Source: Membranipora membranacea
Lineage: Eukaryota; Bryozoa; Gymnolaemata; Cheilostomatida; Membraniporidae
Assembly: GCA_914767715.1 (NCBI GenBank)
Contig: OU612069.1
Location: 5,456,001 to 5,520,000 of the forward strand
Length of the DNA stretch: 64,000 bases
Reading direction: 5' to 3'
Made by a program: the position numbers and the translations under genes. Of this stretch, positions 4,779 through 39,540 are shown piece after piece. Numbering within the stretch: the first letter of the stretch is position 1; every line of letters begins with the position of its first letter. The notes under the pieces were generated by a model. The model did no database searches, was not told the origin of the DNA, and saw only the letters and a program-made list of their open reading frames with translations.

Positions 4779-5207
4779 TTAAATTGCCTGTGGGTAGCCA
4801 AGCTTTTTTAGGAGACTCTCTTTTGTATGCTTGGATCTTCGTAGAGGACCTGTACTGCTTACTACAGGAGGAAGAACAAGGTTCTTCTGAAGTGTATTTC
4901 GTGATTCTGGAGACTGATCATACTGGTCTCCTTCATTCTTTTTCAAGTCCATGACAGCATTTGTAACCATCTCACGTATGGTTGTCTTCCCATCAGCCTT
5001 AGCAAACTGTCTGGCTATGGCTCCAGTAAGAGCTCCTCTGACAGCCATCTCTCCAACCACTGTTGACATCAGTAGCAGTGTATGAGGCCTCTTTAGTACG
5101 ACATGGTCCACCTCATTTGATTTACCTTCCTTTGCATCAGAATGGCTTGTCGAAGGTCCAGCTGCTTGTGGAAGGTTGTAATATTGGCAGGCCTGAATTA
5201 TGGCAAT
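4779..5207 (-). CDS. Terminal exon: caspase-like catalytic Cys and p10-like region
   Basis: 429 bp, phase 0, after an acceptor ending TTGTAG; 142 codons plus stop. It opens with IAIIQACQYYN: a hydrophobic strand then the caspase signature QAC with the presumed nucleophile Cys (residue 818 of the 953-residue product). The fifth residue is Tyr where active caspases have Gly (QACxG), so activity is uncertain. A polar ~25-residue linker follows, where p20 and p10 are separated in caspases. Then comes PHTLLLMSTVVGEMAVRGAL, resembling the p10 stretch with ST, G and a substrate-pocket Arg (R868), and a helical segment. The tail near TLQKNLVLPP and a basic end is family-like but not diagnostic. The stop is TAG or TAA class at 4779-4781. 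Confidence 0.8.
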   Translation of the reverse strand: MAIIQACQYYNLPQAAGPSTSHSDAKEGKSNEVDHVVLKRPHTLLLMSTVVGEMAVRGALTGAIARQFAKADGKTTIREMVTNAVMDLKKNEGDQYDQSPESRNTLQKNLVLPPVVSSTGPLRRSKHTKESLLKKLGYPQAI

Positions 5208-5424
5208 CTACAATGTGTAATATATTATATCGATTGACTACGAATATTTTGAAAGTATGATTTAGTGTGGAACCGTAATTACAATTTTATTTTGTTTGAT
5301 AGTCAACAGATGGTGGTTATTCGAATGAGAAGTTATCACATCATCAGCCCATGCCACATATTGATCCATTTTTCCGATCATCAGCATGTTTGGTGCCCTG
5401 GAGTATTGAAGAATGAATACATAC
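5208..5424 (-). other. Intron between caspase exons (217 bp)
   Basis: The donor is GTATGT at 5424 downward and the acceptor TTGTAG ends at 5208. The intron falls exactly between the strand preceding the catalytic Cys and the p20 body. No other feature was seen. Confidence 0.8.
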
Positions 5425-5843
5425 CATTGGGACTTGCTCAGACAACTTATTATCTAGTATCTGTAGAACATCAGTGATGGGGATATGCGAGCCATTGCAG
5501 CCACACAGCATTCCGGCTTTTCCATGGGTCATGATGGAGATGACAAGAAGGGAGATTCCTTGGGATGGAAGCTCATCAATTCTGTGACGCAGGTCTAATG
5601 CACTTTCCCATTCTATTTTCTGAGTGTCGCATCCTGCTGTGACTAGGCTGTCAGTCATTTTATTAGCTTCATCTTCAGCATCAGGTCTATTCTCGGTGTT
5701 GAACAGCACCAGATCGTACCTCTTCATATGATCTTGATGATGTGGTATGATGTACTGGTCACTCTGAACAAATAGTCGATTGATGTCGTTAGCGTCTAAT
5801 GGATGCTTCTCTATGAGCTCCTTCAGTATCTGTGACTTGTCAC
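5425..5843 (-). CDS. Exon encoding the caspase-like p20 half with catalytic His
   Basis: 419 bp after an acceptor TTAACCAG, ending at a GTATGT donor. It begins with two bases that complete a Ser codon from the linker exon, then 139 codons. The first ~35 residues form a charged helical linker. From RYDLVLFNTENRP the peptide follows the caspase fold: first strand, acidic helix, then LLVISIMTHGKAGML with the catalytic His followed by Gly (H778). Next come the GCNGSHIPITDVL segment, which matches the 'G-x-DG..I.I..I' stretch of caspases, and ...SEQVPM leading into the next exon. His to Cys spacing is 40 residues, close to animal caspases (42 in caspase-3). The usual R-x-G-[ST] substrate-binding motif near the start is not obvious; an NRPDAED stretch sits there instead. 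Confidence 0.8.
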
Positions 5844-6363
5844 CTGGTTAAAATTAGAATTCAAGTCGAAGAGATATAGACAACCTGCAGCTTCCATTCT
5901 ATTGTATATATAGCATTTTACAATTGTAGATTTTAATATTTAAATGAGATATATATATATGATTGTGACATATAAACTCATATTTAAGACGAGTGGTTGT
6001 CATCATTAGTATGCATTGATGTACCCAACAAATATATCTGCTAGCTGTGCAACTTGGTGTCACATTACAGTAATGTCAGTTGTAGCACCTTACCACTGAC
6101 TTCAGATATAATGATAACCATAGCACATATATAACTTGAATCAAATTAGCAGACTTTTGTTAGAGAGTCATAATTGACTAGATCAAATTTTGTTCATTTG
6201 CTTGATTTTCAAGTTTCTCCCATTTATGGTCACACTAAGATGATCACACATAATATGTATAATGTAATATATAGATGTAATACAACAACTTTTAATGGAT
6301 AAAAACTGATTAAACATGTACTAAGTTTTATAAATTTTAATTCAAATTAATTCGGAAACTTAC
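5844..6363 (-). other. Intron (520 bp)
   Basis: AT-rich intron with GTAAGT donor and an acceptor ending at 5844. No coding or structured element was recognised. Confidence 0.7.
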
Positions 6364-6429
6364 TTGATAAGACAAGCTTTGATATGTAGTCTTGAAGTTC
6401 AGTATGACCAGCCTCTGTTATGCTTGAGC
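6364..6429 (-). CDS. 66-bp linker exon of the ROCO-caspase gene
   Basis: This exon lies after acceptor ATATTTTAG and ends at a consensus GTAAGT donor. It reads in the one frame that matches both neighbours: two leading bases complete Cys, 21 codons give SSITEAGHTELQDYISKLVLS, and one trailing base starts Ser. The peptide is amphipathic-helix-like and links the COR side to the caspase-like part. The splice phase agreement on both sides is the main support; I recognise no domain in it. Confidence 0.7.
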
Positions 6430-6659
6430 CTAAAATATTCGCAAAAAATCATTGATAATAAAATGAGTTTTCCATGCAGACAAAAATCAGTGTCTGGGAG
6501 GGCTGCTGAAGAGGGGGTTCAAGGTAGCTAAGCAGCTGTAGTGGCTGGAGCACAGGGAGATGGTGCTTCAAGTTCATTTTATTAAAGCAATTTGCCTTTT
6601 CCATGCCAATAAAGATACTTTGCACTATGATAATACATATTTTTATGACTTTTACATAC
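6430..6659 (-). other. Intron (230 bp)
   Basis: The donor GTATGT is at 6659 downward and the acceptor ends at 6430. Open frames in this stretch on either strand are intronic. Confidence 0.7.
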
Positions 6660-8608
6660 ATGGTTTCATGAGTGGTTGTGGAACAAGTCGGTTCTCTTTG
6701 TTCTGCACTTCCTTTCTGCAGACAAACTTCTCATACCCGGTATAGCTGGGAGCTTTTTCTCTAGAACTATCTGGAACCTCCTCTTGGTACCAATCAGGAT
6801 CAACAGCTGTTTGTGGGTCTAGTTTGATAGTTAGTAGGCAGTGAGAACAGTAGAAGACACTCTCATAACGAACTCCTTTCCAGACAGATTTGAGTTCGGT
6901 GGTGAGCTTTCTCAGGGTCGAAATCTGCTCTTCTCTCGCTTCACAGAGGCTTTTCTGAGGTGTCAGAGTGATTAGAGTGACACGCTTTTCACCTGCATTG
7001 TGAAGGAGGTGTTCGATTATCCCATTACTTTTGGTCACAGTAGCACCATTCCCACCTGCCTCTGGAAAGTTTGAAGGATTAGAATTCATGTCTAGATAGA
7101 CGGCAGTGATGAGGGAGAAGATGTAGCTGGGTATGGGTAGACCGCGGAGATGAAGATCGACCTTCAACGGCACCAGTTGATCGTACACTTCAGGGGATGT
7201 TATTGTTCGGCTGGCAAAATACGGTATAATGTATTTCTGATTGCTTATTGCAGCATTTGAACCGCATAGATGCACAAGATGAAATGTTCTTAGGATTTCG
7301 ATGGACACATCGGCAGGGAGTTGGGATTCTTGCCCTAAGAGGTGTAGAAGCAGAGGTGCATCCATCACTCCTGTGTCATTGAATGTGTCTATCATTTCTA
7401 CATATCTGCTCTTCTCTATGGTTTTTCCGTCAACAAGAGAAAACGGAGTAAATTTATCTAGCCTTTTGTACCAGGATTCCTCTTTTGTGTGGTTGTATAG
7501 GACTTCTATCACACTTGTTATGACTTTAGAGCAATGGAATATAAAGTTTGATAGCTTGTTTAGTCTCCTGAACCACATTATTTGACTTATTTCATGAAGA
7601 TACTCGAGAGTGACATGTCCTTTATCATCAGGAAATTCTTTCTCTATTTCAGACAGGGTGAGCATGGGCTTGTCAGAGTGTTGGACTAGCTTCTGTAGTA
7701 TTCGATACCAGCTACCGGGAATCTCAGTGATTAATCCTGCACCAGCTGCTATGATAGCATTTTTCAGCTTGTCGATTTCAGGCTGTCCGGATGTCTTCGA
7801 GAAGTGATGGATGTCACAAGGCCTTATCAGGACTTCTGAGGTGTTGGCGAAGCTGGTCATGGTGAAGATCGGGTTAGAGTCATTTTTCTGTTCGACATTA
7901 TTTTCTGCTTGAATTATACGTTGGCGCAATTTCTCAGTCACTTTGAGCAGTTGATGAGTCGTCTGTTCAACCTTATCAGGTATACTGTCACAGTGAGTGA
8001 GGACTACTACGGGTCTTTTCAGTTGAGGACACGCAATGTAGAGGTGGGATAACCACTCAATACAAAGCTCTTGACAGGCAGATTCCTCACCTTTCTCTGA
8101 AACTAATCTATCAAACTCAGCAATGTCTATCACTAGCAGCGGCACACATTTTCTTCTAAAAGTCAGTCTATAGGAAAATTGATAGATCTTCTGGCCTCCG
8201 AAGTCAGTAAAGAGTATTTTTGATTTCTCGTCAGCTTCCACCTCGCTCATTTCAAACACTTTAGTGGCAGCATCCAATTTCCCCTCATCAGAATCGCGTT
8301 GTGTCAGCACCCTTTTGTTTGCTTGCACACTGTTAACAAGGCTTGTTTTACCAGCTCTGCTTTTCCCGATGACAGTGACAGCTATAAGTCTCTGATTACT
8401 GGCTTTCTCAATATGGAGGTCATGAATGTACTTTCTCACAGCTTCTACACCTTGCCTACAGACACCTAGTGGTGGAGATGTTAGAGAATCACAGTCATCA
8501 CACTTTACTTTTTCTAATGTGGGGATACTGAATAAGCTCTCGGGGATGGTTGTGAGAGATCTGTTATACTCGATATCCAAATACTTCAGATTAATCAGCT
8601 GGCTGATG
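6660..8608 (-). CDS. Large exon: last LRR, Roc GTPase domain and COR-like region (ROCO family)
   Basis: 1,949 bp after a strong acceptor (TTCTTTTGCAG), continuously open. Residue numbers run from its first full codon. Residues 1-45 finish the LRR (INLKYLDIEYNRSLTTIPES). The Roc domain has a Walker A G81-x4-GKT (GKSRAGKTS), a switch II D135-F-G-G followed by QKIYQFSYRLTF, hydrophobic strands VPLLVIDIAEF and RPVVVLTHCD, the last in the place of the base-specificity NKxD motif (THxD occurs in ROCO proteins). Residues ~290-560 have the length and helical character of COR, with an aromatic-rich stretch IMWFRRLNKLSNFIFHC. A ~90-residue tail leads to the splice. A likely role is a guanine-nucleotide-controlled dimerising switch in the cytosol. 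There is no kinase domain as in LRRK1/2. No stop or frameshift was seen. Confidence 0.85.
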
Positions 8609-11672: not shown

Positions 11673-14191
11673 AGATATCTACTATGACTAGTGTAAATAA
11701 GCAAGTGCAGTGTAAAACATACTAAAATCTCACAATCAGAGGTTTCTATAGCTCAGTGTATTACGACCTACCCAGGACTTACTGTCGTGACCAAATACCA
11801 TGTTGTATCTCTGATATACCAACCTTGGAAAATATCAGGGATCTCAAGCGTCTAGAACCGATCGCAAACTACAGAGCACTCAGACTAAACTGTGATGCTG
11901 GTCTGTTGTTAGGTCATGATTTACTAAAGCAATTACTATCAAGGAAGTGATTGAACCTCCCGAAAGTCGAGCACAGGCTGTGAGATATGCCCTATTGGAC
12001 CTAATCAACATGAAACTAATACTGTATTTTCTGATCAAGTCGGATTTAGTCACTTTACATATTCTGTTGCATCTGATGTATCGACCCAGTGTATGTCAAC
12101 TAACGCCTCTATCTGTAATAAGTCTCAAGTCACGGATGTGACACCGCGAGAACTCATGAAACAAAAAGACGGTCTAGAGTTGCAGGATTTAAATTTAGGT
12201 CAAACTGTTTCTCAGGACGATTTAAAATTGCTAAACATTCTTGATGAGGCCACGTACCAGGATGAGAACAATTATTATGTCACGCCACTACAGTTCGAAG
12301 GCAGTTATACCAGCCTACAGTCGAATTATGAACCAGTGGTCAAGCGTTTTAATGGATTGCTGTCACAATTCAAACGTCGTGGTTCAGAATTTAGGGATAA
12401 GTATACTGAATTCATCAGCGGTGTCATATCCAGAGGCGAGGCCGAGCTGGTACCAGATTCTGATTTGAAAAGCGGGGAGGGTTGTTGGTAATTGCCACAT
12501 CATGGAGTATTCCACAGCAAAACCAAAAAACTCCGATGTGTATTTGATTATAGCAGTAAATACAAAGGCATGAGTAGTAATGACGCTTTTTATCAAGGAC
12601 CCGATCTTAATAACTCACTCTTAGGGGCGCTTATGAGATTCAGACAGAAACCTGTTGCGGTTAGCTGTGACATTGAAAAAATGTATCATATATTTTGTGT
12701 TACACCCGCACATAGAGATTATATGAGATTCTTATGGCTAGATCAAGAAAAGAATGAGCAGACCTATCGAATGTGTGTACATATTTTTGGCGCCAGATCT
12801 TCACCACGCTGTGCCAAATACGGACAACGCCGCTAAGCTAAATATCATGGTAACCAATATCCAGAAGCCCAGAAATTTATCATGCAACATTTCTATGTCG
12901 ATGATGGTCTGCACAGTGTTGATATTCCAGAAGAGGCTACTAAGCTTCTTAATGACACTAGAGCTGTTTGTAGTAAGGGCAACCTCAGGGTTCATAAGCT
13001 GCTATCTAACAATAGTGGTGTGTTCAAGTCATTTCCACAAGCAGATGTAAATATTAATCAGTCCGGTGATTTTGAGTTACTGAGCACAGAACGCGCCCTC
13101 AGGATGCTTTGGTCACTGCAAACAGAGTCATTCAAGTATCAGTATATGCCTAAAGACAACCCATGTACTCGCAGAAGCATATTATTAGCTAATGTAGCAT
13201 CTGTGTACGACCTGATGGGTCTAATCTCACCACTGCTTTTGTCTGGCCATAACATGATTCAGCAAACATGTAAATCTGGTCTTGATTGGGATGAGCCTCT
13301 AAGTGGCGCCACTGCTGATCAGTGGAAATTATGGGATGCAGAAATGTCAAGAATATCAGAAATACCTATTCCACTGTGTATATACCCTACAGGTTTTGTG
13401 CCAGCCTAATGTGAGCTCCACACATTTGCTGATGCCAGCCAGACAGGCTACGGAGCTTGTAGTTATGTACGTGAACTAAACTCTAACCAGGATATACATT
13501 GTTCACTGTTACTAGGAAAATCTTGTGTAGCTCCTATGAAGCCCACTACGATACCACGGCTTGAGCTTCAAGCTGCTCTACTAGCGGCCAAAGTGTGTTA
13601 TCTGAAATGGACTGGAAGTGTGATTCATATTTGTGGTCCGATTCTAAGATAGTTTTAGGCTACATACACAATGGTGGCAAACGCTTCCACACTATTGTAG
13701 CTTATCGTTTGAGCCAAAACCTTGACGTCTCAGATTTATCTCAGAGGCATTATTATAGGACAAATAAAAACCCAGCTAATATAGCCTCTAGGGGTGTCAG
13801 TTCTGTAAATGAGCTTAGTAACTCTCAATGGTTTCAGGGACCTAGTTTTCTGTGGGAGCAATGTGATCTCGAAGATTCTGCCAGTAATAAATTTGATGTA
13901 GACCCAAATTATCTAGAAACCAAACAGTCGACGACAGTTTTGGCCACTGATACCAAATCTCTATCATGTTTGGAACAAGTAGCTGTAGATATAGCCAATC
14001 ATTTTTCATCATGGTCAAAGACTCAGCACAATGTGGCTGTATTGCTCAAAATCAAATCTTCTCACAAGTTTAAAGGATCTGGCAAAGTCTCTGTCAATGA
14101 ATATCGGAATGCCTCTAAGCTTATTATCAAGGCTGTACAAAAATCTGGATTCAGTAGGGGAATACAACTCCTACAATCAGATGAAGTTTAA
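11673..14191 (+). pseudogene. BEL/Pao pol remnant: reverse transcriptase and RNase H, integrase absent
   Basis: Reverse-transcriptase homology begins in 12093-12491 (FISGVISRGEAELVP) and continues after a stop at 12491 with LRCVFDYSSKYKGMSSND, VSCDIEKMYHIF, then, in another frame from about 12882, the catalytic motif FYVDDGL. RNase H begins past a stop at 13407 with HTFADASQTGYGAC and PRLELQAALLAAK. A later frame (13595-14191) has NPANIASRGVSS, typical of the region after RNase H. At least four breaks are visible. Homology stops at 14191 and array sequence (alpha) begins at once, so integrase and the 3' LTR are gone. It sits in the last LRR-to-Roc intron, opposite to the host gene. Confidence 0.85.
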
Positions 14192-18574: not shown

Positions 18575-18715
18575 CTGTCTGGAAGGCTGGTCAAGCCACA
18601 GCTACTCGCATCTATACTCTTCAATGATGCAATTTCCCCCAATCCTGCAGGTAATGTCTGTAGGGCTTCATTGTTATAGACTTGTAACGACTCCAGTCCT
18701 GGCAGTTTGCAGATG
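18575..18715 (-). CDS. LRR exon (third of those visible, next to the Roc exon)
   Basis: 141 bp, acceptor ...CACAG and donor GTGAGT. It begins with C completing a Ser codon and ends with AG starting one (phase 2-2), so it can be added or removed without a frameshift. It encodes about two leucine-rich repeats: LPGLESLQVYNNEALQTLP and, after AGLGEIA, SLKSIDASSCGLTSLP. The spacing L-x2-L-x-V-x2-N-x2-L-x2-LP is the LRR consensus. It splices in frame to the LRR start of the Roc exon (AG+C gives Ser-Ile). The flanking introns are array DNA nearly shared with the 38.5-kb exon. Confidence 0.8.
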
Positions 18716-28884: not shown

Positions 28885-29025
28885 CTCTCCGGAAGGCCAG
28901 TTAATCCACAGCTACTCGCATCTATAATCTTCAATGATTGAATTTGCCCCAATCCTGCAGGTAACTTTTGTAGGCCCTCATTCTCTCCCACACATAACCA
29001 CTCCAGTCCTGGCAGTGTGCAGATG
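28885..29025 (-). CDS. LRR exon (second visible)
   Basis: 141 bp between acceptor CTCCTCCACAG and donor GTGAGT, phase 2-2 like its paralogs. It encodes LPGLEWLCVGENEGLQKLP and SLKIIDASSCGLTGLP, so two LRRs. It is the most diverged of the three: most changes against the 38.5-kb exon are replacements, several at the variable strand positions of the first repeat (L to W, R to C, Y to G, N to E). Framework Leu, Pro and Gly are kept. The open frame and both splice sites are intact, which supports function. Confidence 0.75.
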
Positions 29026-38458: not shown

Positions 38459-38599
38459 CTGTCTGGAAGGCCAGTTAATCCACAGTGAGTCGCATTTAGA
38501 CTCTTCAATGATTGAATTTCCCCCAATCCTGCAGGTAATGTCTGTAGGGCTTCATTGTTATAGACTCGTAACAACTCCAGTCCTGGCAGTTTGCAGATG
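38459..38599 (-). CDS. LRR exon (first visible)
   Basis: 141 bp, acceptor CAACCACAG, donor GTGAGT, phase 2-2. It encodes LPGLELLRVYNNEALQTLP and SLKSLNATHCGLTGLP. Hand count against the 18.6-kb exon: about 10 replacement and 3 silent base changes in 141 bp. It is the most 5' exon of the gene that I can place; the upstream exon is not identified in the remaining 25 kb of the window. Confidence 0.75.
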
Positions 38600-39540
38600 C
38601 TGTGGTTGATAAATAACAGAATGTTAAAATACCATGCAATACTGCTTGTCAGTTGATGGAGCAAACACAGTCGAGCAAAGCATTCTATTAATAGGAGAAA
38701 GTTTCAGATTGATCTGTTACCCGCGTAAGTTGTAACTTTCAGATACAGAGAAATGTATGAATTATTCGAACTAACATATAACGACTCCAGTCTTGGCAGA
38801 TTGCAGATGCTGTGGTGGATAAATAACAGAATGTTAAAATGCCTTGCAATACTGCTTGTTAGTTGATGGAGCAAAGACAATTGAGCAAACGCATTCTATT
38901 AATAGAAGAGAGTTTTAGATTGATCAATTACCCATGTAAGTTGTAACTATCAGATAGATATCTGTATTAATTTTACAGCGCTTCTCCCAAAGCTGAGATT
39001 AATTGATATGACATTGCGCTGCACAGGATAGTCAATAATGGCAGGTTCACATTCAAAAGCTAGAAGTCCCCCCTGTTTAGGGAGCCCTAATCTGAGCAGC
39101 CCTGGCTGTCACAATGATCAACATGGAAAATGAATTATGGTGATCTATCAATAATATTAGTAAAATTAGTAATTGAAAGATCATTGACCTGAGGAAATTT
39201 CAAGTTTGATAGGCCACATAATCATAAAACCAGCGTCATTTCGCTCTATTATTCAGTAACAAAGCTTTCTTATTCAATGGTAATCGCCTACATTAAGTTA
39301 TTTTTACAGGATAATACACCCGTGGCATCGTAACTTTTAACATAATATTACTTGATAATGTTGAAAGTCTCAGATTATCACTATCAAAAAACTTGTCTTA
39401 TTGATTTACTGTACAAATTATTTTTATTTTAAATTGGTACACAGTTGATTTATTATTACATGAGGTGATGAGGACTAATTAATTTGCTAAATATAGTCTC
39501 ATCAAACTGCATTTTTGTTCTGGTCGATTTTCTCGCTACT
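38600..39540 (+). repeat. LRR-exon upstream flank repeat, copy 2
   Basis: Paralog of 18716-19935, which shows that the exon and its upstream intron were duplicated together. Confidence 0.75.
38760..38809 (-). pseudogene. Truncated LRR exon remnant
   Basis: On the minus strand, CACAG then CATCTGCAATCTGCCAAGAC gives SICNLPRLESLYV. Homology to the LRR exons ends after about 50 bp, with no second repeat or donor. It lies 160 bp upstream of the intact 38.5-kb exon, so a tandem exon duplication has been lost. Confidence 0.75.

Follow-up and report, generated by a model that had tools for sequence, protein, structure and literature searches.

Does a single gene of the bryozoan Membranipora membranacea join leucine-rich repeats (LRRs), a Roc-COR GTPase and a caspase-like protease? 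The question is raised by a stretch of 64,000 nucleotides (contig OU612069.1, positions 5,456,001 to 5,520,000; hereafter the window), in which a first-pass annotation, made from the letters alone, had joined four exons at 4779-8608 into an LRR-Roc-COR protein of the ROCO family ending in a caspase. Our results point to the window gene being, probably, one copy of an expanded animal LRR-Roc-COR-caspase family, with sensor, switch and executor in one polypeptide. As far as it can be read from DNA, the architecture is nearly certain: the order of the domains, the splice sites with their phases, the constraint, the size of the family and the retention of active-site residues in both GTPase and caspase are directly seen.

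Exons and domains of the window gene

The four exons were confirmed where the annotation had placed them (Table 1). All have AG/GT borders on the minus strand and join, stop codon included, in a single frame encoding 953 residues. This product is the C-terminal part of a longer one, and the interval 4779-8608, given in the annotation, turned out to hold only the 3' part of the gene, three LRR exons being located upstream, all bordered by AG/GT and compatible in phase with the Roc exon. Combined with the beginning of that exon, they give an LRR_14 match of 73.8 bits in Pfam. Such N-terminal LRRs are frequent in the ROCO family, though not found in every member. A degenerate fourth copy of the LRR exon begins near 38814; the first exon and the start codon were looked for within the 64-kb window and not found.

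Table 1. Exons assigned to the LRR-Roc-COR-caspase gene, in window positions
Feature	Position	Strand	Remarks
LRR exon with two LRR units (141 nt), phase identical at both ends	38459..38599	-	AG/GT borders, open frame
LRR exon, second copy, 141 nt, two LRR units	28885..29025	-	AG/GT borders, phase fits
LRR exon, third copy, with two LRR units (141 nt); in phase with the Roc exon	18575..18715	-	
Exon 1 of the 953-residue product, large: last LRR unit, Roc GTPase (about 8379-7987) and COR (about 7986-6796)	6660..8608	-	
Exon 2, linker micro-exon (66 nt), phase 1 at either end	6364..6429	-	Similar stretch in 28/29 modelled loci
Exon 3, caspase p20; His 5524-5526, Arg 5686-5688	5425..5843	-	
Exon 4, caspase Cys and p10, with stop; Cys 5187-5189, linker Asp 5136-5138, Arg 5037-5039	4779..5207	-	Peptidase_C14 27.2 bits alone

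Both enzymatic parts are recognized by profile search of the 953-residue product, Roc (PF08477) with 30.0 bits for a Pfam cut-off of 27, and Peptidase_C14 with 51.1 bits for a cut-off of 21.4 (E 1.9e-13). Of 27 exon relatives, the window's own exon among them, 25 also match Roc (E up to 1). Exon 3 alone matches positions 14-108 of the Peptidase_C14 profile, just below the cut-off (19.5 bits), and exon 4 alone positions 121-232, while the joined C-terminal 303 residues match 14-232 with 54.2 bits. As the two exons match complementary parts of one domain, their splicing to each other is strongly supported. The product possesses two features of the caspase family, a p20 plus p10 domain and a His-Cys dyad.

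The COR region directly follows Roc, as in the ROCO family, an assignment made on structure and relatives. By Foldseek, the LRR-Roc-COR fold matches the Roco protein of Chlorobium tepidum (6hlu, E 6e-17), and, of the 50 matches listed for the caspase part, every one is a caspase of animal type. In a comparison with PDB sequences, THG and QAC of the window product align with SHG and QAC of caspase-2, in agreement with the catalytic His and Cys proposed by the annotation. Exon 4 alone has no match among PDB sequences. With profile A3, which has only 112 positions and whose exon-4 part was hardly covered in the protein search, three AroA chains (E 0.13-0.14) outrank caspase-2 (E 0.6); we take the AroA matches for chance. 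No NACHT or NB-ARC ATPase, the hallmark of NLR and STAND proteins, was listed for the 953-residue product with E values up to 10 allowed; among 27 exon relatives, two have a weak NACHT match (E 0.023 at best).

The family in the genome

In the genome (339,339,785 bases, 18 contigs), at least 68 scored matches to the Roc-COR exon were obtained among 338 candidates. They are 46-100% identical to that of the window, and 66 of the 68 have no internal stop; one modelled copy, L041, has a stop inside this exon. A scripted search within 10 kb, using 62 of 150 exon-4 matches and 28 of 145 Peptidase_C14 matches, assigns to 67 of the 68 a caspase match that lies 0.7 to 7.2 kb downstream and is on the strand of the Roc-COR exon. 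The remaining Roc-COR exon (C3:26116827, locus L046) is followed by a caspase frame of 38.2 bits by Pfam, which brings the linkage to 68/68. Arithmetic from 145 and 150 matches in 339 Mb gives a chance linkage of about 0.4% per locus. The copies are distributed over C5, C3, C11 and C1, mostly clustered and tandem-amplified, and do not represent 68 independent events; as their Roc-COR parts are down to 46% identical to that of the window, the link between Roc-COR and caspase is nevertheless old.

The splice sites were compared in 29 modelled loci. For this, 31 loci (L018-L048) were fetched from the 67 copies other than that of the window; a Roc-COR exon is present in all 31 and the window-type caspase exons, in order, in 28, which together with the window make up the 29. 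In 29/29 loci a GT comes one base past the (P/L)L(M/I)xP motif that the Roc-COR exon carries, and in 29/29 another follows the same exon 3 codon. The exon 3 acceptor lies at one of two positions three bases apart, both in phase, and an AG precedes the same exon 4 codon in 27/29 loci, being three bases further on in the two others; these same loci hold further AG and GT nearby. Downstream of the Roc-COR exon and ahead of exon 3, 28/29 loci hold a micro-exon resembling SS..GHxxLxxYISxLxxLS, with phase 1 at either end and a score of 35-101 (self-score 101); in L025 the score is 16. Its best stretch ends identically, with Ser and then GT, in 25 of the 28, another GT being best in L020, L042 and L043; in several diverged copies its start was probably placed too early.

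These observations bear on whether a ROCO gene and an adjacent caspase gene merely appear fused, as the location of LRR, Roc-COR and caspase on separate exons in the window would allow. Such an accident of two genes is very improbable, because the intervening micro-exon is conserved and the same arrangement, with the pair on one strand, is kept in all 68 scored copies; the recurrence of splice sites and phases across copies also argues against it. The two-gene candidate was rejected on the recurring micro-exon and the 68/68 linkage, and the annotation's assignment of LRR, Roc-COR and caspase to one gene is supported, at the sequence level, by this same evidence.

The active-site residues are consistently maintained in the modelled loci. 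The caspase His, the Cys and Gln of QAC, the exon 3 Arg and the exon 4 Arg are kept in 29/29; the two Arg residues, matched by motif, may belong to the Asp-specific pocket of caspases (Arg, Gln, Arg). The Walker A Lys and the G3 Asp of the GTPase are found in 28/29, with one gap, and the G4 Asp in 29/29. The linker between the catalytic Cys and p10 is otherwise variable, and yet an Asp followed by Ala, Gly or Ser occurs in 28/29 loci (not in L047), once in each and 13-19 residues past the Cys. Caspases autoprocess at a linker Asp in such a position, and this Asp is a candidate autocleavage site.

The ratio of nonsynonymous to synonymous rates (dN/dS), determined for 17 pairs in all, is 0.09-0.56 in diverged pairs with unsaturated dS, and 0.21-0.81 in four close pairs with the window, save exon 3 of two pairs (see below). 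Comparison of the coding sequences thus shows purifying selection between diverged copies. A one-off assembly or a pseudogene was ruled out by the family size, the open frames (66/68 without stop) and dN/dS.

A genuine fusion could also carry a caspase part that is a pseudo-enzyme or scaffold, of which cFLIP is an example. The divergent QACQ motif, the weak matches to solved caspases and the position of exon 3 alone just below the Pfam cut-off would be in line with this. It is decidedly improbable when set against the invariance of His, Cys, Gln and both Arg in 29/29 loci and the linker Asp-Ala/Gly/Ser in 28/29.

The family is diverse in its effectors. The caspase is of a more canonical form in three fetched loci (L023, L024, L046), with, by eye, THG/SHG/GHG and QACSGG/QACAGS/QACAGG (51.5, 42.5 and 38.2 bits), and the family, by its sequences, comprises at least two caspase subtypes. 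Within this canonical subgroup, similar-looking minus-strand frames are located between the COR and caspase exons (L024:2781-3047 and L046:1561-1833), with no Pfam match at E up to 1. In L039 and L040, the Roc-COR part is 82-83% identical to that of the window and groups with the window clade, while the caspase exons are only about 50% identical. An exchange of effector modules between copies is one possible explanation, and the approximately unbiased test does not reject a shared clade (p 0.095; 29 rows minus L047 and L048).

The LRR part also varies. LRRs and Roc-COR share a single open frame in no fewer than three copies, of at least 2442 aa in L018, 1745 aa in L019 and 1634 aa in L020, with dozens of near-identical LRRs, which in L018 suggests a recent repeat expansion. 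In the window, a same-strand array of repeated blocks (14333-63574, 66-98% identical, mostly above 80%) holds the three LRR exons, and the upstream introns seem, from this repetition, to have been duplicated together with them. The exons at 18575-18715 and 38459-38599 are 9% different, with 10 nonsynonymous and 3 synonymous changes, whereas the 160 bp of intron upstream are 98.8% identical and the 300 bp downstream 87.4%. This pair appears to be a mosaic that may point to LRR diversification, short of proof of diversifying selection.

Several further elements were noted. At least 145 Peptidase_C14 matches and at least 150 p10-like exon matches are found in the whole genome, and some caspase clusters (e.g., C9:9.49-9.56 Mb) are on contigs where none of the scored 68 Roc-COR exons is located; stand-alone caspases, or caspases in other fusions, may have expanded too. 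The window also contains a Pao retrotransposon (Peptidase_A17, 48.1 bits) on the plus strand at 12837-13406 and in adjacent frames, in the intron preceding the Roc exon, a tandem array at 877-2256 (100-bp unit, 13.7 copies) and, on the minus strand at 2554-2769, a possible aldo-keto reductase exon of a neighbouring gene (18.4 bits, below the cut-off of 24). Pao/BEL elements are not known outside animals, and the retrotransposon, like the animal-type caspase, fits an animal genome.

Origin and proposed mechanism

Outside the genome, a protein search with the 953-residue product matched 31 proteins (E up to 0.01). The Roc-COR exon is covered by 26 of them (P0001-P0026, 30-67% identity), none of which extends into the caspase part. 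As the gene calls are exon-sized, the absence of a relative spanning both parts is expected. Searches with caspase pieces gave 3 proteins, then 23 in all. Three pairs share source and length, namely 8216 jgi (P0007, P0034), 5183 jgi (P0004, P0041) and 4757 lgn (P0001, P0048); three public metagenome contigs thus seem to carry both exon types, the identity of the contig being deduced from source and length only. Among bacterial and archaeal genome contigs no relative was confirmed, and viral contigs gave one weak locus of Roc type (L001, 33% over residues 72-159 of the query).

The entire LRR-Roc-COR-caspase gene could alternatively have been transferred from bacteria and have gained its introns later. 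The same domain order exists in bacteria (PMC8195603), and P0030, a weak match in the tail of the product search (E 3.3e-3), is a named Streptomyces COR-domain protein. Such a transfer is nonetheless improbable in view of the animal-type caspases making up all 50 Foldseek matches shown, and of the multi-exon structure common to deep paralogues.

Some of our results weigh against an expanded family of functional ROCO-caspases. The COR-like region of the annotation, upheld by structure and relatives, is not matched by Pfam COR-A in the window member at E up to 1, and in L019 and L020 both COR-A and Roc are below the Pfam cut-offs (Roc 24.0 and 25.7 bits for 27). PDB sequence matches of the window-type caspase are weak (best E 0.0087), and its QACQ motif is devoid of the subsequent Gly that is present in many caspases. 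In two close pairs, exon 3 has dN/dS values of 1.50 and 1.63, from very few changes, and the micro-exon search was made without a shuffled control.

Ligand sensing, activation, protease activity, a death or inflammatory output and an immune role are what we infer for this family. The LRRs would bind a microbial or danger-derived ligand, which would free Roc-COR for GTP/GDP and monomer/dimer cycling; bacterial Roco proteins cycle between monomer and dimer with nucleotide state. The change in dimer state could then pair two caspase domains and lead to proximity activation, followed by autoprocessing at the conserved linker Asp, and the freed p20/p10 protease would cut at Asp sites in death or inflammatory substrates. 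A single chain might in this way perform the job of the sensor, adaptor and caspase of an inflammasome or apoptosome. At the level of the family, we tentatively propose, at somewhat less than even likelihood, a lineage-expanded set of receptors, every gene of which would encode a one-chain inflammasome; LRR cassettes would be duplicated and diversified, Roc-COR would stay constant as the switch, and caspases of at least two subtypes would serve as effectors, possibly exchanged between copies.

An active ROCO-caspase might instead serve developmental or stress-induced cell death, and vertebrate DAPK1 and LRRK proteins are indeed not classical immune receptors. By argument, the presence of at least 68 clustered copies with a differing LRR make-up fits recognition of variable targets better, and a non-immune role is unlikely. 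The one-chain receptor, if true, would parallel, in animals, both NLR expansions and the AP-GTPase conflict systems of bacteria. Animal caspases normally reach sensors via death-fold adaptors, and a sensor-GTPase-caspase fusion would reveal an adaptor-free route to death signalling. It would also couple LRRK2-type switching directly to an easily assayed proteolysis, so that the effect of Roc-COR dimerization would become testable, with measurable cleavage as the output.

Comparison with known systems

NLR inflammasomes and the apoptosome also have an LRR or other repeat sensor, an NTPase switch and caspase activation as output, but they use a STAND ATPase and a separate caspase recruited via death-fold domains, unlike the window family. 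LRRK1, LRRK2, MFHAS1 and DAPK1 have kinase or other modules where the window family has a protease. The Chlorobium tepidum Roco structures (6hlu, 3dpu) show the same LRR-Roc-COR fold and, going by their titles, no caspase.

The annotation knew of no ROCO protein with a caspase, which holds in so far as we found no animal example among the top-ranked results of the open literature searched, which falls short of proof of novelty. It does not extend to bacteria, where caspase-bearing members are in print (PMC8195603). In an invertebrate, the ROCO-TIR proteins of Aplysia similarly combine Roc-COR with a domain of innate immunity, though TIR instead of caspase and in few genes only (PMC9334734). 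Brown-algal ROCO genes are expanded, with LRR exon shuffling, and have been proposed as immune receptors (Teng et al., 2024, PMC11378527). Like the window family, they are of the LRR-ROC-COR type with LRR units on separate exons, but with a single LRR per exon against two units in each window LRR exon; the word "caspase" is absent from the text of this paper, in which three members have another C-terminal peptidase (IPR009003).

The closest likeness in domain order is that of the bacterial LRR-AP-GTPase(Roc)-COR proteins, in which, as in the window family, LRR, Roc and COR precede a C-terminal effector. Kaur et al. (2021, PMC8195603) count caspase among the domains, no fewer than 24, that occur at their C-terminus, and name up to 11 paralogues in one genome. 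On this basis, the LRR-Roc-COR-caspase architecture itself is not unprecedented. The bacterial paralogues, as described there, differ from each other in their effector, whereas the animal multi-exon family has a caspase in all 68 scored copies.

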